Shown here piece by piece: positions 210 through 25,717 of a DNA stretch of 25,857 bases; positions within the stretch are counted from its first letter, which is position 1, and each line of letters starts with the position of its first letter. The DNA comes from a virus. The stretch covers positions 1 to 25,857 of the IMG/VR virus record IMGVR_UViG_3300009495_000068, one strand, 5' to 3'. The position numbers and the translations under genes were made by a program. A model generated the notes under the pieces. The model was not told where the DNA came from. It was given only the letters and a program-made list of their open reading frames with translations, and did no database searches.

Positions 210-1871
210 ATGTATGAAGACAATGACGATAAAAGCAAAAGCAAAACCATATCACCTACTGTTTCGCCTGTTTCGTTACTAAAGCGATATGACCGACTCA
301 AAAGTGACCGAGTCAATTGGGATCAGATGTGGGAAGAGCTTGCTACTTATTTAATGCCAGGCAAGATTGACTTTATATCTAAGTCCAGCAAAGGCACAAA
401 AAGAGCTTCTGAGGTCTATGACAGCACAGCTATACACGCGCTACAGATATTATCAGCATCGCTGCACGGGTCGCTTACAAGTCCATCCACTAAATGGTTC
501 GGCCTACGCTTCCGTGAAGACGAACTGAACGAAGATAAAGACGCTAAAGATTGGTTAGAAAAGTGCAGTATGGGAATATTCCAAGAGTTCGGAAAATCCA
601 ACTTCTCAACTGAAGTCGCAGAGGCTTATCAAGACCTAGCTGGCTTTGGTACTGCCGCTTTTATGTTTGATGTAAAAACTAAAGAGTCGCAGTTTGATGG
701 CTTTAATTTTCGAGCGTGTCATTTAGCTGAAGTCGTTGTATCCGAAAGTGAAGAGGGCCGCATTGATACTGTGTTCCGCAAGTTAAAGCTTACGGCTCGA
801 CAGGCACATCAGAAGTTTGGCGATAAGTGTGGCGAAAAGAGCATGAAAGCTCTGGAGACTGACCCAGACAAAGAGTTTGAGTACATACAAGCTGTGTTTC
901 CCCGTGAGCTAAAAGGTGAGCCAGCATTAGTTGCTCCCCCTAATATGCGGCCTTTTGCTTGTTACTTCATTAGCGTTGCTGACAAAAAAATAGTTAAAGA
1001 GTCGGGCTATTACGAGCTTCCGTATATGGTCCCTCGTTGGGGCAAGACCACAGGTGATGTCTACGGATTTGGACCTGGTTGTGTGGCTCGTCCAGATATT
1101 AAAACGCTAAATGAGGCTCGTAAACTAGCAATGAAAGCGTGGGAGAAATCAATTGATCCCCCACTTAAAGCCATGCAAAACGGCATCCTTGGCAAGATTG
1201 ATATGCGGCCCAGTTCGGTGACATATGTCCGAGACATGAACGGATTGCAGCCTATTGTCAATCAAACTAACTGGAACGCTGATCAGTTAATGCTAAACGA
1301 TGTCCGTGGCTCAGTGCGTAGAATCTTCTTTTCTGACCAGCTTGAGTTAAACGATGGTCCACAAATGACAGCGACTGAAGTCCAGGTTCGCTATGAATTG
1401 ATGCAACGCCTATTAGGTCCAACCCTTGGTCGATTGCAATCAGAGTTCCTAAACCCAATTGTCGAGAGAGCATTTTATTCCATGTTGCGTGGCAATGCGC
1501 TGCCACAAATGCCCGAAGTATTACAACAAGCTGGAGGTGATTTAGATATTGAGTATGTCGGCCCATTAGCACGATCTCAGAAGATGGATGAGGTGACCTC
1601 TATCCAACGCGCAGTCGATGGGATTATGCAGCTGGCTAATGTTAATCCAGAAGTATTGGATCTTGTCGATGTCGATAAAGCAGGCCGTACCATTGCAGAT
1701 AGACTTGGTGCGCCTGCTGACATTCTTAAGGGTGATGAGCAAGTGGGTCAGCTTAGACAGTCACGACAGCAGCAGCAACAGGCACAGGCTGAAATGGAGC
1801 AGGGCCAGCAGCAGATTGCAGGCGCACAACAGGTAGCTGATTTGGAGCAGACTGTAAATGGACCAGTTTAG
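210..1871 (+). CDS. Portal (head-to-tail connecting) protein
   Basis: This 553-residue protein is the podovirus portal, the ring at one capsid vertex through which DNA is packaged and ejected. Family-typical features are the N-terminal RYDRLKSDRVNWDQMWEEL segment (about residues 27-45), the Trp-Gly-Lys-Thr/Gly-Asp-Val-Tyr-Gly stretch near residue 277 and the TATEVQVR motif near 388. Length fits the Head-tail_con family. The C-terminus is a Gln-rich tail (about 510-540). The ATG follows the upstream TAA directly, without a clear Shine-Dalgarno, so translation is probably coupled. It precedes the Bbp19-like, scaffold and capsid genes, the usual head-module order. Confidence 0.95.
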   Translation: MYEDNDDKSKSKTISPTVSPVSLLKRYDRLKSDRVNWDQMWEELATYLMPGKIDFISKSSKGTKRASEVYDSTAIHALQILSASLHGSLTSPSTKWFGLRFREDELNEDKDAKDWLEKCSMGIFQEFGKSNFSTEVAEAYQDLAGFGTAAFMFDVKTKESQFDGFNFRACHLAEVVVSESEEGRIDTVFRKLKLTARQAHQKFGDKCGEKSMKALETDPDKEFEYIQAVFPRELKGEPALVAPPNMRPFACYFISVADKKIVKESGYYELPYMVPRWGKTTGDVYGFGPGCVARPDIKTLNEARKLAMKAWEKSIDPPLKAMQNGILGKIDMRPSSVTYVRDMNGLQPIVNQTNWNADQLMLNDVRGSVRRIFFSDQLELNDGPQMTATEVQVRYELMQRLLGPTLGRLQSEFLNPIVERAFYSMLRGNALPQMPEVLQQAGGDLDIEYVGPLARSQKMDEVTSIQRAVDGIMQLANVNPEVLDLVDVDKAGRTIADRLGAPADILKGDEQVGQLRQSRQQQQQAQAEMEQGQQQIAGAQQVADLEQTVNGPV

Positions 1872-2049
1872 TAAAGACATACGAGAATTATTCAACAGCA
1901 AAACAGGCGAGAGAATACTTGCCAATATGAAGGTGGCCTATGGTGATCGAATTTCGTTTACCAAAGACCCATGTGAAACGGCTTTTCGTGAAGGTCAGCG
2001 TAGCATTTACTTAGAGATCACGAACATTGTGGAGAAAATAAATGAGTGA
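1858..2049 (+). CDS. Small Bbp19-like phage protein
   Basis: A 63-residue protein overlapping the portal end by 14 bases and the scaffold start by 8 bases. A GGAG at 1844-1847 lies 10 bases before its ATG. The C-terminal half contains an AFREGQRS motif typical of the small protein encoded between portal and scaffold in BPP-1-like podoviruses (Bbp19). Its function is not known; position suggests a role in head assembly or the connector. Family assignment is from memory of the motif and position, not from a search. Confidence 0.75.
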   Translation: MDQFSKDIRELFNSKTGERILANMKVAYGDRISFTKDPCETAFREGQRSIYLEITNIVEKINE

Positions 2050-2857
2050 AGAAACAGAAGCAGCAACAGAGTCCTGGCACTCAGGTTTGTCTGATGAATA
2101 CAGGGGTAATGAATCACTATCACAGATACCTGACCTAAACACTTTAGCTAAGTCTTACCTTGATGCCCAGCAGTACGCTGGCGGTTCAATTCGCATACCA
2201 GGTGAAGACGCAAGCACAGACGATTGGACAGCGTTTAACGCCAAGCTTACCGATAAGGTTCCTACCCTATTAAACCTCTCCAGCGATGAGGACGAAGCTC
2301 GTAATGCGATGTATGCGCGACTAGGCCGTCCAGACACAAAAGAAGGTTACAAGGTTGATGGTGCTGATCCAGATTTCTTGGAATGGGCGCATGAAAACGG
2401 ATTATCAACTGCACAAGTAAAAGCCTGGCATGAGAATACTCAAAGCCAATCGGCTCAGGCTGACGAGCAGAACGATCAACAAATGCAAGATGCAAATGAC
2501 TTACTCAAAAAAGAGTGGGGTCACGCTTACGATGCCAAGTTAGCTGCGGCAAAGAATGCTGTGATGGCCTATGCCGATGCTGAGACACAGCAGTTCTTGT
2601 TAGACAGTGGTCTAGCTAACAACCCTGGCATGATCCGACTGATGGCTGGTATAGGGTCCACCTTGACCGAAGAGCAGTCAGCAGGGCTTAACTCAAGTTC
2701 TCAATTTTCGTTATCACCAACTGAGGCTATGGACAGGATTGGCGAGGTTAGGCGTAACGCTGAACACCCGTACAATGTTGCCAGCCATCCACAGCACAGG
2801 GCTGAAATTGAAAAAATGGAACGCTTGTACACACAGGCATATCCAGAGTTAGATTAA
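2042..2857 (+). CDS. Capsid scaffolding (assembly) protein
   Basis: This 271-residue acidic protein, rich in Glu, Asp and Gln, sits directly before the major capsid gene, the standard place for the scaffold around which coat subunits assemble. Recognisable features are the N-terminal SLSQIPDLNTLAKSYLDAQ stretch (about residues 25-43), a PDTKEGYK segment near 97 typical of such proteins, a long Gln/Asp-rich helical middle and a short C-terminal helical segment. GGAG at 2031-2034 lies 7 bases before the ATG. No protease motif is visible. Confidence 0.85.
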   Translation: MSEETEAATESWHSGLSDEYRGNESLSQIPDLNTLAKSYLDAQQYAGGSIRIPGEDASTDDWTAFNAKLTDKVPTLLNLSSDEDEARNAMYARLGRPDTKEGYKVDGADPDFLEWAHENGLSTAQVKAWHENTQSQSAQADEQNDQQMQDANDLLKKEWGHAYDAKLAAAKNAVMAYADAETQQFLLDSGLANNPGMIRLMAGIGSTLTEEQSAGLNSSSQFSLSPTEAMDRIGEVRRNAEHPYNVASHPQHRAEIEKMERLYTQAYPELD

Positions 2858-3036
2858 TTCTAATAACCGCACCAAAAAACACGATCATTTAACTCAACAG
2901 GGTAGCTAAACCTTAGTCCTGATGGGTTAGATGAGCCGTTTCTCATCTCGTTAACGCAAGCGTTATTGCCAGTTAAGAGTCCGCAAGGGTAGCTCAAAAC
3001 GCCAATTTCAATTTGCCAATTTCGGAGATGAATATA
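2858..3036 (+). promoter_or_regulatory. Structured leader before the capsid gene
   Basis: A 179-base gap, the largest in the structural module. It holds a hairpin with a 7-bp stem AGATGAG/CTCATCT (2929-2948), an inverted repeat TAACGC-AA-GCGTTA (2952-2965) and a 9-base direct repeat GCCAATTTC (3001-3009 and 3015-3023). The Shine-Dalgarno GGAG (3024-3027) follows directly. A leader that raises capsid expression by promoter activity or mRNA stability is an inference; I could not fix a convincing -35/-10 pair. Confidence 0.45.
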
Positions 3037-3891
3037 ATGGCTAATACAATCGCAAAAGCGTTTGTCCAACAGTTCCAGGACAACCTTATACATTTAGCGC
3101 AACAGAAAGGTTCACGCCTACGCGCATCAGTAAACGAGCAGTCAGTCACAGGCGAGAAGTTTAACTTTGAACGTCTAGGCACAGTCGCTGCTGTTGTTAA
3201 ATCTAGTCGGCATACCACTACACCTGTGTTGGAAGTTCCACACTCGCGTAGGGTCGCAACGATGACTGATTACCACTGGGCCGATTTGATCGATGACGAA
3301 GATAAAGTTCGTATGTTGATTAGCCCTGAGTCCCACTATGCCAAGTCTGGCGCAAACTCAATGGCTCGCGCATTCGATGATTTAATCATTGCTGCTGCCA
3401 CTGGTAACGCTGTCGATGGTGACGGCTCTAACGTAGCTTTGCCTGCTGGTCAAAAGATCGCTCATGGTTCTGCTGGTCTGACTCTTGCTAAGTTGATCTC
3501 TGCTAAAGAGATTCTTGATGGCAACGATGTTGATCCAGACGAAGAGCGTTTCTTTGTACTAGGCTCACAACAGGTTTCTAACTTGTTGAACACGACTGAG
3601 GTGAAATCTGCGGATTACAACTCTATCAAAGCCTTAGTACAAGGTGATATTGACACGTTTATGGGATTCAAGTTCCTACGTTCTGAGCGTTTAAACCTAG
3701 CTTCTACCCAGCGTAAATGTTTCGCATTTACAAAAGGTGCGATGGGACTCGGCATTGGGAAGGATGTTTCTACCAAAATCGATCTGCGCCCTGATAAGTC
3801 TTACGCTCATCAGGTGTACTTGTCATTCGTAGCTGGCGCAACTCGCGTTCAAGACGAATGTGTTGTTGAGGTACTTTGTACTGAATCCTAA
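3037..3891 (+). CDS. Major capsid protein
   Basis: A 284-residue coat protein. The segment TPVLEVPHSRRVATMTDYHW (about residues 62-81) and the following Asp-Asp-Glu-Asp-Lys, Ala-Arg-Ala-Phe-Asp-Asp and Ala-Ala-Ala-Thr-Gly-Asn-Ala stretches are characteristic of the podovirus coat family (Phage_capsid_2 type). I chose the ATG at 3037 (MANTIAKAF) because GGAG at 3024-3027 lies 9 bases before it; the frame is open further upstream to a TTG at 3013, which has no such site. It follows the scaffold gene and is followed by a strong terminator, so it is probably expressed at high level. Confidence 0.93.
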   Translation: MANTIAKAFVQQFQDNLIHLAQQKGSRLRASVNEQSVTGEKFNFERLGTVAAVVKSSRHTTTPVLEVPHSRRVATMTDYHWADLIDDEDKVRMLISPESHYAKSGANSMARAFDDLIIAAATGNAVDGDGSNVALPAGQKIAHGSAGLTLAKLISAKEILDGNDVDPDEERFFVLGSQQVSNLLNTTEVKSADYNSIKALVQGDIDTFMGFKFLRSERLNLASTQRKCFAFTKGAMGLGIGKDVSTKIDLRPDKSYAHQVYLSFVAGATRVQDECVVEVLCTES

Positions 3892-3909
3892 GTTCAGTAT
3901 GTAGCAACC

Positions 3910-3938
3910 AAGGGGGCTGAAATACGCCCCTTTTTTTT
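3910..3938 (+). terminator. Rho-independent terminator after the capsid gene
   Basis: The stem AAGGGG/CCCCTT, plus a further C-G pair past a bulged G, is followed by eight T residues (3931-3938). It lies between the capsid stop and the tail tubular A gene and would lower tail gene expression relative to capsid. Confidence 0.9.
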
Positions 3939-3953
3939 AATCAAGGAGTTGTC

Positions 3954-4514
3954 ATGGCTAGTGAAGTTTCAATCTGTAATCGGGCTTTGGCTATGCTGGG
4001 CGGCAGCACTATCACCTCTCTTACCGATGGATCTACCGAAGCTAACGTGTGCAACGCAGTCTACGCTGATGCTAGAGATGCGGTTCTAAGGGCGTACCCT
4101 TGGTCCTGTGCTATTCAACGTGTAAGCCTCGCTCAACTTTCGACTCCTCCAGTGTGGGGATTTGATAAGGCATACAGCCTACCTAATGACCCGTTTTGTT
4201 TATCCGTACTTGATTTAAAAGAAGACTCTAAATATCGGGTTGAAGGTCGAACCCTGGTCTGCAATAGCGATACCGCAACCATTAAATATATTTCACAAAT
4301 TACTGACCCTGGTCAGTTCGACCCAGCACTCGTCTTTGCGATTGCCTGTCGGATTGCAGCAGAGGTCGCATACGCACTGAGCCAAAATAGATCACTAGCC
4401 AATGATATGTGGAACCTGGCTAGTCAATCAATTGAAGAAGCGTCTGGTTTTGACGGAGCAGAAGTTGGATCTGAAGACATTGCTGCAACAATATTTGAGG
4501 ATGTTCGCCAATGA
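3954..4514 (+). CDS. Tail tubular protein A (T7 gp11-like)
   Basis: This 186-residue protein forms the upper ring of the short tail tube below the portal. The start SEVSICNRALAMLGG and the VLRAYPWSCA motif near residue 45 are signatures of the tail tubular A family, and the length matches T7 gp11. AAGGAG at 3943-3948 precedes the ATG. The stop overlaps the next ATG by 4 bases, coupling it to tail tubular protein B. Confidence 0.93.
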   Translation: MASEVSICNRALAMLGGSTITSLTDGSTEANVCNAVYADARDAVLRAYPWSCAIQRVSLAQLSTPPVWGFDKAYSLPNDPFCLSVLDLKEDSKYRVEGRTLVCNSDTATIKYISQITDPGQFDPALVFAIACRIAAEVAYALSQNRSLANDMWNLASQSIEEASGFDGAEVGSEDIAATIFEDVRQ

Positions 4515-6888: not shown

Positions 6889-8372
6889 GAATACCTAATA
6901 TCAACCAGACAGGTGTGCCTGGTGCTGAACAAATTAGTTTAGGTGCTATCTCATCCGCTGCTCAAGCCGAGATGAGGACCACGCAGGCACTGGTTCAAGT
7001 GGTCGATGATTACCAGGTAATGAGCAATAAGGCAGAGGCAGTTGCTCAGTATGGGCAAAACTATCAATCTAGCCTAATAGCATTAGATTCAGCATATGAT
7101 GAAATGGTTAATCAGCCTCATTTTGATCAAGACAATAACCCCACTTACCGAGATATTTCTAAGCGTTGGAATGCGATTTCGATGAAACACGTTTCTGAAA
7201 CGCTAAATAACTTTACCAATAAAACAGCATCTACTAAGTATCAAGAAGATATTTCTGCATACTTACGAGGCAAGGCTTCTGACATTAGAGGCGTTGCTCG
7301 AACAAGGCAAGTTGATTATGCCAATGGTGTCCTGGCTTCTCAAATATCATCGTATAGCAAACTGCACAATGGTAATGAAATGATCCAAGCTGCAATTGAG
7401 CAGCAAGTAAAGATTGGATTTATGACCCCAGAGGCTGGCGTAAATGAACTACAAAGTCATCTTGAAACCCATGCGTCTACTCAATTAACAATGTCTATAG
7501 AAAGCTCTACTAGCGATACAGACCTTGACGCTATACGACTTTCATTGATTAACAATACTAACCCATACCTATCATTGTCCACTGTACAGTCTGCGTTCAC
7601 ATCTATTCAACAACGCGAGAATCAAATCGATAAAGACTTTGATGACGAGCAAACAAACACTTATGTTGATGCCCTGACCAAGATTGTAATGGGGGATATA
7701 ACTAATGAGGGCGAAATTGATTTACTACTACTCAATGACAAAATTACCCCTGCGTATCATGCGGCTTTAAGCCAACGACTTGTTGAGGAGATCAAGGGTC
7801 CAGAGGTAGACGATTGGTCTGAGTATTCACTAATTAAATTAAATGTGTGGGACTACACAGCCGCTGATATTTTAAACAACGAAATGTTAACCCGTGATTC
7901 TCGCATTAAACTTTTGGCTGATTTAGCCAAATGGAATGATGACCAGGATACAGATTTGGATTGGGTTGCAACTCAAGCAGGCAGAGAGGCGACCAGGCGA
8001 ATAAAAGCTGCTTTTCCAGTTGCGTCAAAACAATTTAATCCTTTTGGTGCTGCCAGCGCAGAAGCGGATGCGGCATTAACTAAATTGTACGATGCTGTAA
8101 TAGCCCTTCCTGTTGGTAAGCGCACAACGTCAGTCATTGATTTAGCTAATCAAATAATTGCGGATAAAATCAATAATAAGCCGAGTTCTAGTTCGTCTGC
8201 TCCTACAACAATTCAAGAGATTGTTGATAAGTATCCACCTGGGACTGACAGAGACAAAGCTCTTAAAGAGTTTGAAGCAAAATATTTAATAAAACCAGAT
8301 GCTAAAGATTATAGAAGATTAGTACAAAACGACATTATGTCATTAGCAAAAGAGCTAGGAGTCATCGTATGA
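6885..8372 (+). CDS. Internal virion protein (gp15-like position)
   Basis: A 495-residue, mainly helical, soluble-looking protein that starts with GTG inside a GTGA overlap with the preceding gene. The N-terminal MRIPNINQTGVPG segment followed by an Ala-rich helix is common among podoviral core proteins in this position. No enzymatic motif or membrane segment is evident; a low-complexity Ser patch lies near residue 428. By order it corresponds to T7 gp15, part of the ejected channel that delivers DNA into the cytoplasm. The role is inferred from context. Confidence 0.7.
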   Translation: MRIPNINQTGVPGAEQISLGAISSAAQAEMRTTQALVQVVDDYQVMSNKAEAVAQYGQNYQSSLIALDSAYDEMVNQPHFDQDNNPTYRDISKRWNAISMKHVSETLNNFTNKTASTKYQEDISAYLRGKASDIRGVARTRQVDYANGVLASQISSYSKLHNGNEMIQAAIEQQVKIGFMTPEAGVNELQSHLETHASTQLTMSIESSTSDTDLDAIRLSLINNTNPYLSLSTVQSAFTSIQQRENQIDKDFDDEQTNTYVDALTKIVMGDITNEGEIDLLLLNDKITPAYHAALSQRLVEEIKGPEVDDWSEYSLIKLNVWDYTAADILNNEMLTRDSRIKLLADLAKWNDDQDTDLDWVATQAGREATRRIKAAFPVASKQFNPFGAASAEADAALTKLYDAVIALPVGKRTTSVIDLANQIIADKINNKPSSSSSAPTTIQEIVDKYPPGTDRDKALKEFEAKYLIKPDAKDYRRLVQNDIMSLAKELGVIV

Positions 8373-11300
8373 GCGGTATTGTATGGAACGTGGACCCTGG
8401 CGAATTGCAACAAGCTGATGACATAGCTAGAGCAGGGCAAGATCAAGCAGATCAACAGTATGAGACAAGCCTCAAACTAACCGATGCGCTAGGTAAAAAG
8501 CATCGCGTTATAAAAGAGCAGCAGGCTATAGATAACCCTGATGAAGATATGGTTTTGGCATCAAGGACGCTTTATGAAATGCGCCAAGGTAAAGAATATG
8601 AGGGTACTGACTCTGATTTAATTCGTTATGGCATTGACGAGATGGGCCGATTCAACCACAGTATTTTTCAAGCTGATAACAATTTCTTGCAGGATCTATC
8701 GTATAAGTACAACCCTTTGGATATGTCTACAAAAGACTATATGTCTAATCAAGATGAAATAGGCTTGTACGGCTATATGGAGTTAATGGAAAGTGATCAA
8801 ACGACACCTGATCAGAAGTTAGCATTCTTGCACCTGTCTAATGCGTATACAGCGATGGACATGGACAACGTAAATGAAGCAGCGCGTATGGGCCAAGCAA
8901 TGGTTGCAGATCCATCTAGCCTTGGAGGTATTGCTGCACTGGCATCACAAGGGCTTAGATATTTAGGGAAGAAAGGTCTTAAATCTCAAATGAGAAATAG
9001 ACTTGAAACATCATTAGCTCTTAGCTTAGAAGGTGCTGCATTTGGGGATGCCTATACCCGTATTCACCAACAAGCAATAATCAATGCTAGTGACAACCCA
9101 TATTTTAGCCAACAAACTGAGCAAGATAATACTTTAAACGCTTTATCTGCTGGCATAGGTGCAACCTTTGGTGCGCTTCTTCCAGTTGCTCCAGGTTGGA
9201 TATGGGATGGATTAGGCTGGGCCGTAGATAAGACTTACAAGCCTGGACAGTTAGGTTCTGGAGTTGGACCTACTGATTGGCCCGATAAGCCTGACTACAC
9301 ACCAGACATTGCTACTGGCGGTCCAGATGTCCCTGCGCTTGGTGATCCTGGTATGCCTAGTGTCGGTCCAGACCCACAACTTAATGATGCAGCTATCACG
9401 CCTGATGCAGGGGTTTCACAAGCACTAGCGGTTCCATTAGATAACGCAAAGGGTCACGCTATGCCTCCATTGCTATTGGTTTCGGGAACTGGTGAAAAAC
9501 CTTCAATACCAATAGTTCAGACATTTACGCCAAACAACACAGCCTCTCTAATGGCTAACATAGATACAGTTTTAGCAGATAATCCACTATCGCTGGCATC
9601 AGAGGAAAACTGGTTAAGCACGGAAGCTCAAGCTTTTGGAGGCGACTTTCTGCCAGCACCACCATCGCAGGCTATAAAGTACACACAAGACCCACAGGCA
9701 TTAGCTACTAAGTTAAAGCAATTAAGCCCAGAAATGAAAGCTGCTGTGGATGAAGGTTTTGAATATGTAAATGAAATTAAAAGCATATACAACACAGGTC
9801 AAGCTAGTCAAGACATGACAGCTAGGTTATTTACTTGGGGTATATTATCGCGTGGTGCAGGCCCAATGCAGCAAGAAGGTGCGTTTTTAGATATTCTTGA
9901 GGGTGCAACTCCCTTTATTAAGAAAACAATTAATGGAACATTTACTGAGTCCGATCTTGAAGCCTGGAAGAAAATGACTTCAACAAGTCTTCCAGAAGGA
10001 TCACCTGGAAAACAAGTCACAATGAACGCTAACGCGACAGGAAATTTGTTAATGCAACTATCCAAAGTTTCAGATGTGGAAGGAACTAGGACTACAGCAT
10101 TAAAACAATTGCATGACTTATTGGCAGACCCTAATGCCTCTGGCCCACAAGTCAGGCGTAAGTTTTTTGAGTTAACTAACAAGGCTGGGATTGACAATAA
10201 AGTTGTATCATTCTTGTCTCTTGTTGGCGGCAAAGATGATTTATTGGTAATGGACCGAATCCAATCTCGACACTTATGGGATGATGGACGTTATGATGGC
10301 AAGAACATTTACGATGGTATAGACAAGGGAGGCTTGAGTAATATTGTTGCTGGCCCAAGAGGGTTAATGATTACTGAGATGTTGGAAAATGGATTAGCAG
10401 ATACTGTTAAAGAAGCTTACCGATTACTTGGTCGCCCTAAAGATGCAAGCTTAAGTCGAATGCATTGGGAATCTTGGCTGATCGAAGGTAACCAACCAGT
10501 ATCTCACAGCACACTTGAGTCTGTTAGGTCTGGTAATGCCATAGGAGGTTCGGTAACAGAAGGAAAACCTGGAACTTTCTCTTCTGGAGTAACGTATAGA
10601 CAAACTGTTAATGGTTCTATTCAAGAGTATCCATTGTCAAATGGTGGCATTGTTAGAATGACTCCAGAGCGACAAAAAGAATTTGAAAAGTTTATAAAGA
10701 ATCCGAAAAATGGTATAGTACCAGCAGGGTTTAAGGTCACTGCTTCCAAAGAGGGGCCGTGGTTTACTAGTCCAGAAGTTAACAGGAGCAAATTAGATGA
10801 AGCAGCAAAACAATTTGAAAACGCCAACGCAGATGGATCGCTTCAATCGGGCACTGTCAGGACTGTCTCAGGTGGAAACACCATTTCAGGACGAAAGTCA
10901 GAGTTCCTTAGCTCCTTCCGTGCAGACCAAGACAGAGCCTTCAAAGCTGGACGGGGTACGAGCACCAATAGTGGCAGAAGTAATGGCTCGACATTCGGGC
11001 CTTACCGAAGCGGAAGTATTGGAGGGGATGGAAGCAATGGGCTTTTAACTTTTGAAGCTGAACCATCTATTTTAACTCAGTATCAATCTGCTGGGCTAAA
11101 CCTACCCACTATTAGTCAAGTAGATGCCCCATCTAACGCTATAACTTATAACTTAGACATGACAGCCGCTATGGCTGGAAATAAGTTTGGTCCTCAAGTA
11201 GAAATCAAAAGCGCAGAAGACCTCGCATCATCTAGTTTATTTAGAACAGAGTCTGGCAGTGGCTTTGCAATAAAGCCTGATGGTGACATCGTAGCGGTGT

Positions 11301-11629
11301 TTGCTTCTTCCACTGAGCCAGCAGGCGGTTCCTATGCGATGCTGCAGGCGGCTGTACAAGCAGGCGGTAATAAGTTGGATGCCTTTGATACATTCTTGCC
11401 AGATATTTATAAACGCGTTGGATTCCGTCCAGTGGCTCGTATTCCTTGGAATGATGAATTTGCTCCACCTGGCTGGGATAAAGAAGGTGTGTTCAAAAAA
11501 TACAACAATGGTGAGCCAGATATAATTTTCTTTGTTTACGACTCAGAATACTTTGGTGGTGCTACCGATGTGCCTTTGGTCACTGATTACGATGACGCAG
11601 TTCGATTACAAAATGAGGCATTAAAATGA
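8369..11629 (+). CDS. Large multidomain virion protein, candidate ejected polyvalent protein
   Basis: A 1086-residue protein overlapping its neighbours by 4 bases on both sides; AGGAG at 8357-8361 precedes the ATG. The N-terminal 240 residues are helical. Residues about 250-290 hold a hydrophobic Gly/Ala-rich segment, followed by a Pro/Asp/Gly linker (about 290-360). Residues about 487-700 form a dense conserved-looking domain with LFTWGILSRGAG, a GIDNKVVSF segment near 607, VMDRIQSRHLWDDG near 626 and RMHWESWLIEG near 692. Residues about 957-1065 resemble the C-terminal half of a GNAT acetyltransferase, with KLDAFDTFLPDIYKRVGF. Between them (about 824-892) is a Ser/Gly/Asn-rich stretch that coincides with an out-of-frame ORF. 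Ejection with the genome is inferred from position. Confidence 0.8.
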   Translation: MSGIVWNVDPGELQQADDIARAGQDQADQQYETSLKLTDALGKKHRVIKEQQAIDNPDEDMVLASRTLYEMRQGKEYEGTDSDLIRYGIDEMGRFNHSIFQADNNFLQDLSYKYNPLDMSTKDYMSNQDEIGLYGYMELMESDQTTPDQKLAFLHLSNAYTAMDMDNVNEAARMGQAMVADPSSLGGIAALASQGLRYLGKKGLKSQMRNRLETSLALSLEGAAFGDAYTRIHQQAIINASDNPYFSQQTEQDNTLNALSAGIGATFGALLPVAPGWIWDGLGWAVDKTYKPGQLGSGVGPTDWPDKPDYTPDIATGGPDVPALGDPGMPSVGPDPQLNDAAITPDAGVSQALAVPLDNAKGHAMPPLLLVSGTGEKPSIPIVQTFTPNNTASLMANIDTVLADNPLSLASEENWLSTEAQAFGGDFLPAPPSQAIKYTQDPQALATKLKQLSPEMKAAVDEGFEYVNEIKSIYNTGQASQDMTARLFTWGILSRGAGPMQQEGAFLDILEGATPFIKKTINGTFTESDLEAWKKMTSTSLPEGSPGKQVTMNANATGNLLMQLSKVSDVEGTRTTALKQLHDLLADPNASGPQVRRKFFELTNKAGIDNKVVSFLSLVGGKDDLLVMDRIQSRHLWDDGRYDGKNIYDGIDKGGLSNIVAGPRGLMITEMLENGLADTVKEAYRLLGRPKDASLSRMHWESWLIEGNQPVSHSTLESVRSGNAIGGSVTEGKPGTFSSGVTYRQTVNGSIQEYPLSNGGIVRMTPERQKEFEKFIKNPKNGIVPAGFKVTASKEGPWFTSPEVNRSKLDEAAKQFENANADGSLQSGTVRTVSGGNTISGRKSEFLSSFRADQDRAFKAGRGTSTNSGRSNGSTFGPYRSGSIGGDGSNGLLTFEAEPSILTQYQSAGLNLPTISQVDAPSNAITYNLDMTAAMAGNKFGPQVEIKSAEDLASSSLFRTESGSGFAIKPDGDIVAVFASSTEPAGGSYAMLQAAVQAGGNKLDAFDTFLPDIYKRVGFRPVARIPWNDEFAPPGWDKEGVFKKYNNGEPDIIFFVYDSEYFGGATDVPLVTDYDDAVRLQNEALK
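10797..11048 (+). CDS. Candidate 83-residue protein nested out of frame in the 1086-aa gene
   Basis: This ORF lies wholly inside the large virion gene, in the +1 frame. AGGAG (10784-10788) lies 8 bases before its ATG, an almost ideal spacing; a second ATG lies at 10833. Its product looks more like a normal protein than the host frame does here: it ends with a compact helical segment, VMARHSGLTEAEVLEGMEAM plus Gly-Phe, of a style I have seen at the ends of other phage proteins, while the long frame reads as Ser/Gly/Asn-rich low complexity. It might be a true overlapping gene, a relic of an inserted gene or a frameshift product. The function is unknown. Confidence 0.45.
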   Translation: MKQQNNLKTPTQMDRFNRALSGLSQVETPFQDESQSSLAPSVQTKTEPSKLDGVRAPIVAEVMARHSGLTEAEVLEGMEAMGF

Positions 11630-14523
11630 GTTCTCTTGCTAAAACTTTAGCCACCATACTAACGTCAAAAGTAACTAAAGAGGTGGCACAAGAAAGCCCT
11701 GCAATTATTTACGGCAACTCAGTATCTCAAATGTCTAGGAATGTGCCCGACCCCGAAGCCATCGTGCCCGAAATGGCATCTGAAGTAATGCCTACTCAAG
11801 ATATTGCGCCAGATCCATCAGCCAGCACAATGATGGAAGTAGATGGCGTTGTAAGTGACATAACGCCACCAGAGGCCGCTGTTGCAGACGCTATTGACGA
11901 TCTAACTACTATCACACCAGAAGCCCAGCAAATGCCTGCGACTGACGTTCTAGTGCCTCCAGCCGCTAAAGCTAATGCGGTCCCAATTGAAGAAGTCCAA
12001 AAAGATATGCTTGATGAGGCGGTCCAGTTAGCAGACCAGGCTGATGACTTCATGGCGACATCGATTGATGACTACGATACACGGCAAAACTGGCAACCTA
12101 ACTTTGATACTATCGATACAGACGAAAAAACTCAGTCACTCATTGCTGGGTTAGCTGACCAATATTTAGACGAGATCGATGAGGCCAGGCGTGGAATAAT
12201 CCGAGATCAAGAGCTAACTGAAATGGCGAGAGAGCTAGGTCAAAAGCCTGAGTTCTTGGAAAAGATATTAATGCGAAAAACGGGTGAGGCGGCTAATGCT
12301 GAAACAATACTTGCTTCACGCCATGTTCTGCATGAGTCAGCACGAAGCCTAAAAGTTATGGCACAAAGAGTTTTGGCTGGATCGGCTGATGACAATATGA
12401 AGTTAAAGTTTCATCGTCAATGGGATTTTCATAATCAGTTTATGGCTCAATTCATGGGGGCTAGGGCTGAGATTGGACGGGCCATGCGCTCATATGGAAT
12501 GCCTCTAGGCAGTGAAAGTATGCAAAATAATCGAATGAAGGAGATCATGGAAACCCAAGAGGGTCGATTTGACATATTAGAAGTGGCTGAACAGATTATG
12601 AATAACGACACCTTTGAAGGGCTTAATAAGATTGTTAAAGCTCAAAAAGGCGGTATGTCAAAAGGTGGTGCGGCAATGGCAGAGCTATTTGTTTCATCAA
12701 TCTTGTCAGGCGTAAAAACTCACATTGTTAATTCTACGGGTAATGCCCTAATGACAGTTATTGGTCCATTTGAAACGGCTCTTGCTGCTCGTATGGGCTG
12801 GGGTATAGCTGATGGACCTAACAAGATAATAAAAGGCGAAGCACTGGCTCAAACTTTTGGTTTAATTAATGGGTTTGCTGATGCTTTGTACGTTATGGGT
12901 CAAGTCTTTAAAACAGGTGAGCCATATGGGGGTATCGCTAAATATGAGTCTGCCTATCCAAAAGCAATTAGTAGTGCAACTTTTAATGTGTCAGGCACAT
13001 GGGGTTGGATGATTGATGCCTTTGGATCTACAGTAAGATTTCCACTAGAGCGAGTCATGGGTCCAGTTGATGGCTTCTTTAGATCAATTAACGAAAGGGC
13101 AAAGGTCGCACAAATGTCATATCGTGAGGCCAGTAGATTGAGAGATTTAAATGGCTTATCTGAGCAAGAATATCTACAGACGCTTGATTCATTAATGACT
13201 GATGTGCCGTTAAATATTAAAGAAGCTGGCGTTGACTACTCGATTTATAACATGGCTGCGACTCCCTTGCCTCCACTAGGTCGTGACTTGCAGTCTTTGT
13301 TAAACAAGTCTGCTCCTGCAAAAATAATTCTTCCTTTTATTAGAACCCCTACTAACTTATTAAAAATGGGGTTTGTAGAAAGAACGCCTTTGGGTTTGTT
13401 GTCAAAAAAATATAGAGAAGAGTTTGCTGCTGGAGATGAAAGGGCGCAACTTGCTAGAGCTAGACTGACCTTTGGTTCAATGCTTGGCGCATACATAGCG
13501 ATGCAAGCAATTGACATGAAAGTAACTGGGTCTGGTCCTATAGACTACCAGGCTAGGAAAGCTAAAATGTTAACTGGATGGCGGCCCAGGTCTTTTGTTT
13601 TTACAGATGATGAAGGTAATCGAACCTATACTTCTTATGATCGAATGGAGCCAATTTCATACATTGTCGGCACTATTGCTGATTTAGTGGAGATGAATGA
13701 ATTAAATAAATACAACGCTTACGATGATTATGACCCTAGTCAAGCTATTAATGCTATCACTCTTGTACTGGCAGAGAACACTTTAAACAAGACTTTTATG
13801 TCTGGAATCCATGACTTTATGGGTGCGTTTACAAGAAGCCCTGGTCAAGCAAGTAAAGTTGATCGGTTTACATCAGGTCTTACAAACGCTGTTATTCCTC
13901 TGTCTGGAGCTAGAAGAGATGCAAGAAAGTTTCAAGACCCATATATGAGACAGACATTTACTTTTGTTGAGAAGCTTAAAAATGGCACACCTTGGATGTC
14001 TGAAACTTTACCAATGGCCCTTGATGCAATGGGCGACCCAATAATGTATGAGCAAGTTCTTAACCCGTGGCCTGTTAGTAATGAGACTTCAGACCTAGTG
14101 ATTCGCCACATTGGTTCGTTGTTAGACAGCACTAATGTTACGCCTATTAGAATGCCAAAGAAGACAATGGATGGTGTTGAATTAACTTCTAAACAATACC
14201 ATGATCGAATTTTAATATCGCGCAAGACATTAAAGATTCCTGATGGTGAGGGTGGTGAACTCGACTTTAGAATGGCTTTAGTTAAACTAATCCAATCTGA
14301 GACATACCAGGCAGCACCTACTGACTTCATTCGCGTGGAGATGGTAAAGAATATTCAAAAGGCATTTGACGCTAGTGCTACAGCATTTATGTTGAACCCA
14401 GAAAACACTCAATACAGTGGACTTCAAGATAAAGTAATGGAGCGCAAGATTGGTAAGGCATCGCAAACGTATGGCGCAGAAAATGTACAGGAGATGTTAA
14501 AGCAGAACGCTCCTCAATTCTAA
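11626..14523 (+). CDS. Large internal virion / DNA-ejection protein
   Basis: A 965-residue protein at the place of T7 gp16. The first 190 residues are acidic, Pro/Ala-rich and probably disordered. Residues about 345-400 (AELFVSSILSG, then a Val/Met/Ile/Gly-rich stretch) and 405-440 are hydrophobic and could insert in or lie along a membrane. The ILPFIRTPTNLLKMGFVERT stretch (about 566-585) and the GWRPRSF...SYDRMEPISY region (about 652-680) are typical of the large core proteins of related podoviruses. I see no lytic transglycosylase motif, unlike T7 gp16. ATGA overlap with the preceding gene. Ejection is inferred. Confidence 0.75.
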   Translation: MSSLAKTLATILTSKVTKEVAQESPAIIYGNSVSQMSRNVPDPEAIVPEMASEVMPTQDIAPDPSASTMMEVDGVVSDITPPEAAVADAIDDLTTITPEAQQMPATDVLVPPAAKANAVPIEEVQKDMLDEAVQLADQADDFMATSIDDYDTRQNWQPNFDTIDTDEKTQSLIAGLADQYLDEIDEARRGIIRDQELTEMARELGQKPEFLEKILMRKTGEAANAETILASRHVLHESARSLKVMAQRVLAGSADDNMKLKFHRQWDFHNQFMAQFMGARAEIGRAMRSYGMPLGSESMQNNRMKEIMETQEGRFDILEVAEQIMNNDTFEGLNKIVKAQKGGMSKGGAAMAELFVSSILSGVKTHIVNSTGNALMTVIGPFETALAARMGWGIADGPNKIIKGEALAQTFGLINGFADALYVMGQVFKTGEPYGGIAKYESAYPKAISSATFNVSGTWGWMIDAFGSTVRFPLERVMGPVDGFFRSINERAKVAQMSYREASRLRDLNGLSEQEYLQTLDSLMTDVPLNIKEAGVDYSIYNMAATPLPPLGRDLQSLLNKSAPAKIILPFIRTPTNLLKMGFVERTPLGLLSKKYREEFAAGDERAQLARARLTFGSMLGAYIAMQAIDMKVTGSGPIDYQARKAKMLTGWRPRSFVFTDDEGNRTYTSYDRMEPISYIVGTIADLVEMNELNKYNAYDDYDPSQAINAITLVLAENTLNKTFMSGIHDFMGAFTRSPGQASKVDRFTSGLTNAVIPLSGARRDARKFQDPYMRQTFTFVEKLKNGTPWMSETLPMALDAMGDPIMYEQVLNPWPVSNETSDLVIRHIGSLLDSTNVTPIRMPKKTMDGVELTSKQYHDRILISRKTLKIPDGEGGELDFRMALVKLIQSETYQAAPTDFIRVEMVKNIQKAFDASATAFMLNPENTQYSGLQDKVMERKIGKASQTYGAENVQEMLKQNAPQF

Positions 14524-20378: not shown

Positions 20379-21518
20379 TTAACGATTTAAATCGGCTTTT
20401 AAGTCTAATTTAGGCTCTGCTATCTTCCACTCAATATCATCAGGATCTTCTTCATAAAAGTTGGTCATTTCTACACTGGAGTGACCAGCCATTGTTGTTG
20501 CTGATTCGCCAAACCTTCTCTTGTATATTTTACTGCCTAATGCCTTACCCTGGTGAATGCCTGGTTGTTCATCTTCTGCGTAATCAGGGTATGCGTTAAC
20601 TAAATCTCTGACCTTCTTAAATGCTCTACTCAAATACGCTGGCGTTATGTATGTTCTATGTTTGCCTGAGTCCATTGCAGCCTTAGTGCGCTTCTGTGGC
20701 ACTCTGTGAATCAAGTATGGGCTTAATACATTGTCGGCTTTGCACTGTTGTATAACTTGCGCCAATTCGTATGTGACCTTAATTTTAATATACGCACTAT
20801 CATGCTTAATGCTTTTCTTTTGGATCATGTGAATATAGCCATCTTTAATGTCAGACAATTTAATATCACAAATATCCGATCTTCGCTGTAATATTAATAT
20901 TGCCAGATCCATAGCGTTTTTTAGCCAAGGTTCTGCTGCGTTATAAATAGCATTCCAACCATCAATGGTATGCCTTTTGGTAACACGCTTTTTGTTTACC
21001 TGTAAACATGGCGTTGCTGGGTTAATACTATCAACGTAACCTTCTTGTATTGCGTACTCAAATAAAAGCATTAGGTGGCCCCTGTGAACGTCACGCGCCC
21101 TAGCAGTGCCCAGGTTAGTTTTTGGGTCATACATTTCATTAAGGTATCTAGTAATGTCTATCGTCTTAATGTCTCTGGCGTATTTTTTCCCTAGCTTTAT
21201 TTTAATGCGGTCTAAAGTGTAGCCGCGATTATCAAAAGTTGACTTGGCTATTTTATTTTCTGTGAATTGTTGTTTAACAAACGACCTATATTCCTCGCAC
21301 AATGCACTGACTTTGATCATGCCATTAATTAGCATTTTTTCAATTTCAAAACGTTGCTCAAACTTGTCATTCATAATCCTTGCGGCTTTCACCGCATTTA
21401 GCTTATTAGTTCCAAGCCCATGCCGAGTTTTAAGTGTAGGGTGCTTATACGCATAGTACACCCTGCCTTTTGATGAACTGGCGTAAAGGTTTGGCGGCAA
21501 TCCTTGAGGTTTAGGCAC
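20379..21518 (-). CDS. int: Lambda-type tyrosine integrase
   Basis: A 379-residue recombinase that joins attP to the host tRNA site. Residues 1-65 (LPPNLY... Tyr-Tyr-Ala-Tyr... LGTNKLNA) match the lambda integrase arm-binding domain, then a core-binding domain (about 75-175) and the catalytic domain. Catalytic residues by alignment with lambda Int: Arg212 (LQRRSDICD), Lys about 234-235, His322 (HQGK), the second His in AGHSS and Tyr355 (NFYEE). The residue matching lambda Arg311 is Lys325, so the HxxR motif reads HxxK. Start is GTG (21516-21518), overlapping the Xis-like gene by 8 bases, with no strong Shine-Dalgarno. Confidence 0.93.
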   Translation of the reverse strand: MPKPQGLPPNLYASSSKGRVYYAYKHPTLKTRHGLGTNKLNAVKAARIMNDKFEQRFEIEKMLINGMIKVSALCEEYRSFVKQQFTENKIAKSTFDNRGYTLDRIKIKLGKKYARDIKTIDITRYLNEMYDPKTNLGTARARDVHRGHLMLLFEYAIQEGYVDSINPATPCLQVNKKRVTKRHTIDGWNAIYNAAEPWLKNAMDLAILILQRRSDICDIKLSDIKDGYIHMIQKKSIKHDSAYIKIKVTYELAQVIQQCKADNVLSPYLIHRVPQKRTKAAMDSGKHRTYITPAYLSRAFKKVRDLVNAYPDYAEDEQPGIHQGKALGSKIYKRRFGESATTMAGHSSVEMTNFYEEDPDDIEWKIAEPKLDLKADLNR

Positions 21519-25081: not shown

Positions 25082-25717
25082 TTACTCGGCTACAAATGAG
25101 CCAATCACCACTCCTATTATTTTAGAACCATCTGTAAATGCTTCTATTGCGTACTGTGGGTTGATTGGCTTGAGCAGCTTCTTACCCCCATCTTCAATGT
25201 ACTCTTTAAAAGTCGCTTCCTCAGAATCTTCAAGTTTAGCCATAACGCGAGAGCCACTAACTAATGGCGCGTCTGGGTCAATGAATATAATGATTCCTGC
25301 TGGATAACTTTTATTGTTAGGGTAGGGCGATGTCATCGAATCCCCGTTAACAGTCGTGGCAAAAGTATTTTCACCACATTGAACTGGGCAGTACAACCAA
25401 TCCACTGTCTCCTTGTCTAGCTTCATATAATCTCCTTGATAATATGCATTAACTTCATTCCACCTGATTAATGGAATTCGGCTGTGAATAGGTGCAATTG
25501 AAACCTCACCTCCGAATGTTGCTCCATGCAATATGTAGTCTGGGGCGCAATCTAACGCCCTGGATAGTGCTGATAAGTGCTTGTTCTTAGGCTCTACTTC
25601 CGCATTTTCCCAATACGTTATTGAGGTTGCAGACACCCCCACCAATTCGCCCAATGCTCGCTGGGTTAAGTTTTTTTCTATTCTACGAGATTTAATTCGT
25701 TGTCCAGAAGTTGTCAT
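25082..25717 (-). CDS. CI/LexA-type phage repressor
   Basis: A 211-residue repressor that keeps the prophage silent. Residues about 5-62 are a Cro/C1-type helix-turn-helix (LTQRALGELVGVSATSITYW). The C-terminal half is an S24 peptidase fold with Ser127 in GDSM and Lys171 in EATFKEY as the catalytic pair, and LLKPINPQY (181-189), typical of phage repressors. The usual Ala-Gly cleavage dipeptide before the catalytic domain is absent: the matching place reads Glu-Val-Asn (88-90). AGGA lies 8 bases before the ATG. It is divergent from the cro-like gene across a shared operator region. Confidence 0.92.
   Translation of the reverse strand: MTTSGQRIKSRRIEKNLTQRALGELVGVSATSITYWENAEVEPKNKHLSALSRALDCAPDYILHGATFGGEVSIAPIHSRIPLIRWNEVNAYYQGDYMKLDKETVDWLYCPVQCGENTFATTVNGDSMTSPYPNNKSYPAGIIIFIDPDAPLVSGSRVMAKLEDSEEATFKEYIEDGGKKLLKPINPQYAIEAFTDGSKIIGVVIGSFVAE

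Follow-up and report, generated by a model that had tools for sequence, protein, structure and literature searches.

Comparison among related viral sequences shows that positions 10797-11048 of the viral record IMGVR_UViG_3300009495_000068 are a real, conserved, and previously unannotated overlapping gene. The record was surveyed as a 25.9-kb viral DNA, and the whole analyzed stretch of 25,857 nt is called the window here. The best overall explanation (probability of about 0.8, from sequence comparison) is that a real small gene lies in the +1 frame of a long virion gene and has its own start, with the long frame acting there as a linker. The features involved are:

3013-3891: capsid gene (PF19821), in the same virion block
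8369-11629, + strand: long (host) gene of 1086 aa, flanked by a 495-aa ORF and an internal virion protein gene
9425-10835, + strand: upstream domain X of the long frame (long-frame residues about 353-822), with 51 relatives on viral contigs
10784-10788, + strand: Shine-Dalgarno AGGAG, 8 nt ahead of the nested ATG, using the long-frame Arg codon AGG
10794-10796, + strand: +1-frame stop TAG, abutting the nested ATG
10797-11048, + strand: nested gene of 83 aa, ATG start and TAA stop, in the +1 frame of the 1086-aa ORF
10797-10899, + strand: N-half of the nested gene, FNRALSGLSQVETPF, with a predicted helix at residues 12-25; its kind is tied to the upstream domain X
10865-11041, + strand: part of the long frame that covers the nested gene, predicted to be a disordered linker (model residues 444-502)
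10956-11045, + strand: C-half of the nested gene, VRAPIVAEVMARHSGLTEAEVLEGMEAMGF, a predicted helical hairpin; its kind is tied to the downstream GNAT-like domain
11048-11626, + strand: C-terminal GNAT-like domain of the long frame, putative acetyltransferase by annotation of relatives
11626-14523: PHROG match to an internal virion protein, neighbor of the long gene

The long gene lies in a T7-like virion block that also contains a head-tail adaptor, capsid, tail protein, internal virion protein, and tail fibre. Part of the N-terminus of its product presents 24% identity to 'internal virion D' of Pseudomonas phage LUZ100, and the product is probably an ejected internal virion protein. On the - strand, this phage carries a lambda-type integrase and an S24/HTH repressor (20379-21518 and 25082-25717); their presence beside a T7-like virion block suggests that it is probably a temperate podovirus.

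When considering one genome alone, 27% of codon shuffles that keep the long protein fixed leave the +1 frame open, and a gene call from the open frame of a single genome was rejected for this reason (P = 0.27). We recruited 51 viral loci with the long-frame domain X. The +1 frame at the end of domain X is open in all the loci examined, and the 36 aligned relatives (36/36) present a +1 ORF with (D/E)xFxxALRGLxKVxTPL or a variant of it. We assessed conservation in BLOSUM units on 19 representatives sharing < 80% identity, against shuffles preserving the long frame. In the core stretch, the +1 frame had no stops in the 19 representatives and an excess conservation of d = 2.1 (z = 21), compared to an excess of about 0-0.35, z ≤ 3.9, and 11-58 stops for wholly upstream control windows of the same alignment. 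We rely on this comparison with control windows, since resampling z-scores obtained with no control for relatedness are inflated. The second alternative frame presented 33 stops in the core stretch and also a raised conservation, which is the expected effect of the other frame being constrained.

The substitution pattern, counted on 12 pairs of relatives, changes within the nested gene. Substitutions at the first, second, and third long-frame codon positions were 316, 224, and 615 in the flanks and 253, 176, and 185 inside it (p = 1.6e-19). The share of third positions goes from 53% to 30%, and that of first positions, which are the third positions of the +1 frame, from 27% to 41%. In most pairs, the long frame evolves faster than the +1 frame over the nested stretch, and for the C-terminal half the +1 product is more similar than the long one. 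Moreover, L019, L020, L024, L025, and L027-L029 still encode the small protein although their long frame stops within its gene, so the nested ORF is not a mere by-product of the long frame. Altogether, these comparisons show a +1 protein under selection of its own.

The original prediction, made from a single sequence, had proposed an 83-codon +1 ORF preceded by AGGAG 8 bases ahead of its ATG, and both were confirmed (83 aa, ATG to TAA, inside 8369-11629; AGGAG at 10784-10788 and ATG at 10797). The conservation of the +1 frame among relatives shows that its reading as an overprinted gene holds. It had also named +1 stops in homologues, or a lack of similarity for the product, as evidence to the contrary: no stops were found in the core stretch of the 19 divergent relatives, and homologues of the nested product do occur.

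The GNAT-like domain allowed us to look at the same position from the downstream side, since relatives of this domain were found on at least 295 viral contigs. In each of the 48 fusions that were inspected first (48/48), a +1 ORF ends 0-12 codons ahead of the GNAT-like domain, with a C-terminus close to PGLTxEExxxxMxEMGF. Across 33 diverse fusions, +1 conservation of the C-half was 2.36 vs. -0.36 expected, and that of the long frame was 1.38. In 46 non-redundant fusions, the +1 open length exceeded that of shuffles (p = 7e-7) and the +2 open length did not (p = 0.93); due to the fixed search window, this test took the wrong +1 stretch for L006 and L007, which makes it conservative. L164, L196, and L217 all have the nested ORF.

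The two halves of the nested gene follow the flanking long-frame modules, as the comparison of loci shows. After domain X, the N-half reads FxxALRGLxKVxTPF, and after an unrelated domain Y it reads YDQEFAQAMKLKLxLNRQ. In some loci, a module Z (FRAVHDAFGHG) replaces the GNAT-like domain downstream, and the C-half before Z then differs in kind (EVEEDGIRQxALRRLKVRQ), whether the upstream domain is X (L037) or Y (L169). Thus, all four combinations exist, namely X with GNAT (window), X with Z (L037), Y with GNAT (L120), and Y with Z (L169), and in each of them the small protein has the matching halves. This modularity, and the recurrence of the nested gene in many otherwise unrelated settings ahead of the same downstream domain, were not visible from the first reading of the sequence.

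Regarding the flanking modules, no Pfam family matched domain X, and its conserved C-terminal tail QFENANADG shares bases with the start of the nested gene. Domain X displayed weak, non-significant fold matches to endonuclease III and to the 8-oxoguanine glycosylase AGOG (HhH type). The GNAT-like domain matches 'acetyltransferase' genes of Streptomyces phages (E~1e-6), has no Pfam match and no fold match, and presents a weak HPA2-like match in the PDB (E = 0.21). Its assignment as a GNAT, taken from the annotation of relatives, is putative and unproven. Stand-alone genes related to this domain occur in Streptomyces phages and close to the left end of Pseudomonas phage Alpheus, so it is found both on its own and as part of a virion protein.

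At the structural level, the long frame over the nested gene is rich in Gly, Ser, Asn, and Arg, and in the AlphaFold model nearly all its residues 444-502 have pLDDT < 50, between two better-folded parts. The model of the nested product, with a modest mean pLDDT of 66, has a helix at residues 12-25 joined by a loose linker to a helical hairpin (55-65/71-80) in its C-terminal third, where pLDDT is about 76-88. The low complexity of the long frame and the helical C-terminal end of the nested product, both noticed in the original prediction, agree with these models, and the predicted disorder fits its suggestion of an insertion tolerated as a linker. We suggest that the long frame across the nested gene would serve only as a flexible linker.

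A third suggestion, that two former genes make up the long ORF, is in line with those loci (L019, L020, L024, L025, and others) in which the long frame runs out within the small gene or shortly past it. Fifteen of the X-domain loci in the tree have a long frame that terminates within the small gene or no more than about 12 codons past its end; in the other X loci it continues into the GNAT-like domain, module Z, or others. The tree points in the same direction, with the GNAT-like fusions needing several gains or losses: the GNAT label requires about three state changes, and the L030/L071 fusions and the un-fused L045/L046 form strongly supported sister groups. On this tree, which has no outgroup, these changes support repeated fusion by stop loss (or repeated fission). 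Stop loss would have joined the upstream gene, the small gene, and the GNAT-like domain into a single reading frame. The small gene predates or outlives the surrounding fusion, as the compared loci show, because it is kept at the 3' end of stopped long genes and one nested kind has a distant homologue that is a separate gene.

This distant homologue comes from bacterial genome bins, mostly Gastranaerophilales, with distant relatives of the GNAT-like domain. L223-L225 have a +1 ORF before the domain, and L221, L222, and L226 have a small gene with a strong Shine-Dalgarno just after the GNAT-like ORF; L222 and L226 have no comparable nested ORF, and L218 shows none. In L221, the small gene (3476-3670, AAGGAGGT) lies directly 3' of the GNAT-like ORF with no overlap, and it shares 38% identity over 61 aa with the nested ORF of L228, a related contig (shuffle z = 19). 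Thus, at least one kind of small protein exists both nested and as an ordinary gene beside the same domain. Within region 1318-3670, L221 has this small gene twice, as a short nested +1 remnant and as a complete free-standing copy, and may represent an intermediate stage in an escape from overlap. When compared to the window gene, the Gastranaerophilales small genes presented no significant sequence homology, the link between L228 and L221 being the only significant one, and their relationship to the window gene is suggestive only.

The nested product had no match in Pfam, PHROGs, PDB, or phage isolates, and fold searches with its model and with the long-frame model retrieved no significant match. 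Its homologues were found only where the long gene has homologues, and a profile of the small family found no additional members away from the nested position in the fetched loci. Since no family or structure matches the nested product, its function is read from linkage alone. The nested arrangement recurs across many phages wherever the GNAT-like domain is fused, which suggests that the hidden protein works with that domain. We tentatively propose, at a little short of even odds, a partner role for it: a small helical inhibitor or chaperone, coded inside its own client, that acts on the C-terminal modules of the ejected virion protein. The C-half would bind the GNAT-like domain, and the N-half perhaps the upstream domain, in the producing cell. 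The partner would keep the effector, which would be packaged and leave the virion together with the DNA, in an inactive or assembly-competent state. Both roles give the same pattern. X-domain relatives without the GNAT-like domain retain the N-half, so partnership with the GNAT-like domain is not the whole story, and the N-half presumably serves the upstream part.

It is also quite possible, if somewhat doubtful, that the nested gene is real and encodes something unrelated to the domains on either side, such as a protein for host takeover or a factor in tail structure or assembly. Its linkage to the modules would then be hitch-hiking: the halves must travel with the modules because the bases are shared, their co-inheritance is partly a consequence of shared DNA, and the N-half kept by X relatives lacking the GNAT-like domain fits as well. 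However, N-halves of several unrelated kinds are found in association with the GNAT-like domain, and the L221 locus has a homologous small gene directly behind the GNAT-like gene, where no bases overlap.

We consider it unlikely that the nested gene is an antidote, in which case the virion protein would bear toxic effector modules and the small protein would protect the producing cell. Polyvalent virion proteins have been described with effector domains that include GNATs (PMC5512222), and the small-protein and GNAT genes are tightly linked, with either one coming first, but a chaperone role predicts the same pattern, and toxicity and inhibition are hypothetical. A broader proposal, leaning toward the improbable, is that effector modules carry their own antidote or chaperone gene in the linker, in the +1 frame, and recombine as one dual-coded cassette. 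If true, a new effector domain would arrive with the matching partner half, and the partner would occasionally escape to become an ordinary downstream gene, as in L221.

Regarding initiation, the Arg codon under the Shine-Dalgarno is AGG in 9/9 relatives with the same ATG and in 0/27 starting elsewhere (Fisher p = 1e-8, with relatives that are not independent). The L037 group has its start at a later position, preceded by AGGGAG. The anti-Shine-Dalgarno duplex energy was stronger than in synonymous shuffles of the long frame for both N-terminal kinds (p = 0.001 and 0.0002). L071, L074, and L158 are exceptions to the kept signals and likely start further upstream. These comparisons show that the Shine-Dalgarno is maintained at the expense of codon choice in the long frame.

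Programmed frameshifting could instead make the +1 ORF an alternative C-terminal end of the long protein, and L019-L036 do include relatives with the +1 frame open further upstream. We regard this as highly improbable. In the window, the +1 frame is closed by the TAG at 10794-10796 rather than open across an upstream slip site; a +1 stop abuts the ATG in most same-start relatives too, which argues against entry through an upstream frameshift. No conserved slippery sequence was seen by eye, and the Shine-Dalgarno stands at the proper distance and shifts along with the start codon. The kept Shine-Dalgarno and start signals favor independent initiation: ribosomes would initiate at the nested gene's own AGGAG/ATG on the same late mRNA, and the product would be a soluble helical protein of about 83 aa.

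Finally, it is scarcely credible that the +1 frame is open and similar merely through conservation of the long frame, with no gene at all: a +1 frame open over such a length is not unusual in a single genome given the long protein (P = 0.27), but shuffles with the long protein fixed fail to give the +1 conservation, flanking windows of the same alignment lack it, the long frame is the faster-changing one in most pairs, the small protein is encoded even where the long frame of relatives has already ended, and one nested kind has a homologue that is a separate gene, so that, provided the alignments are right, the control windows, the substitution pattern, and the C-half conservation refute it.

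Nested phage genes and overlap by stop loss are already known kinds. Rz/Rz1 is an embedded out-of-frame phage gene pair whose two products work together (PMC5295617). In such spanin pairs of the lysis region, Rz1 is a lipoprotein and Rz is anchored in the membrane. As in Rz/Rz1, the small gene here lies wholly within a longer one, in the other forward frame, has its own start, and is conserved across many phages. Unlike Rz/Rz1, it is outside a lysis cassette; the gene that contains it is a virion gene, and its product is predicted to be soluble and helical, contains no cysteine that could bear a lipoprotein anchor, and exchanges halves with the flanking modules. Overlapping genes can also arise by loss of the stop codon between neighbors (mechanism a; PMC2268670). 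This is in line with the un-fused relatives and the several changes that the fusions need on the tree; here, however, reading through the lost stop also adds a new domain on the far side of the small gene, turning the small gene into a coding linker.

Polyvalent proteins of phages and conjugative elements have exchangeable domains, GNATs among them, and are thought to enter the host with the DNA (PMC5512222). A word search of that paper did not find 'overlapping'. The window protein is similarly long, multidomain, and virion-type, with domain exchange shown among relatives, and no named polyvalent domain was identified in it.

In GNAT toxin-antitoxin pairs of the TacAT type, an acetyltransferase toxin has a small adjacent partner gene. 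The window likewise has an acetyltransferase-like domain and a small adjacent partner gene, but here the partner is nested and is not recognizable as a DNA-binding antitoxin, and toxicity of the GNAT-like domain is hypothetical. A limited literature search found no paper title describing the nested gene of the window.

Annotation misses nested genes inside large phage genes, and the recurrence of this one in dozens of diverse phage contigs and in the isolate DC33 points to a systematic blind spot. The gene also offers a natural example of co-evolution and recombination of two proteins on shared bases. Moreover, the nested product is a candidate controller of enzyme-like domains that phages package and inject.

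In the isolate, Limnohabitans phage DC33, such an ORF lies inside a 3125-aa gene, at 5762-5989 of L006, and matches the profile HMM of the C-half (E = 3e-7). Its record (PQ492659.1, L006) is a 39-kb phage with very long virion-type ORFs, and its listing as Inoviridae looks like a taxonomy error. Microbacterium phages UtzChips, Barnstormer, and Caron (L007 about 3857-4000, L219, and L220) have a 47-codon +1 ORF, MALPITEEERLAF...AAILTGW, with AAAGG before its ATG, in the minor capsid gene just ahead of the GNAT-like domain. This ORF is unannotated and near-identical in the three phages, which are too similar and GC-rich for selection tests. In L233-L237 and L261, the +1 ORFs ahead of the GNAT-like domain end in a differing conserved ELLALHGIACPK..., and they are perhaps another kind of nested partner.
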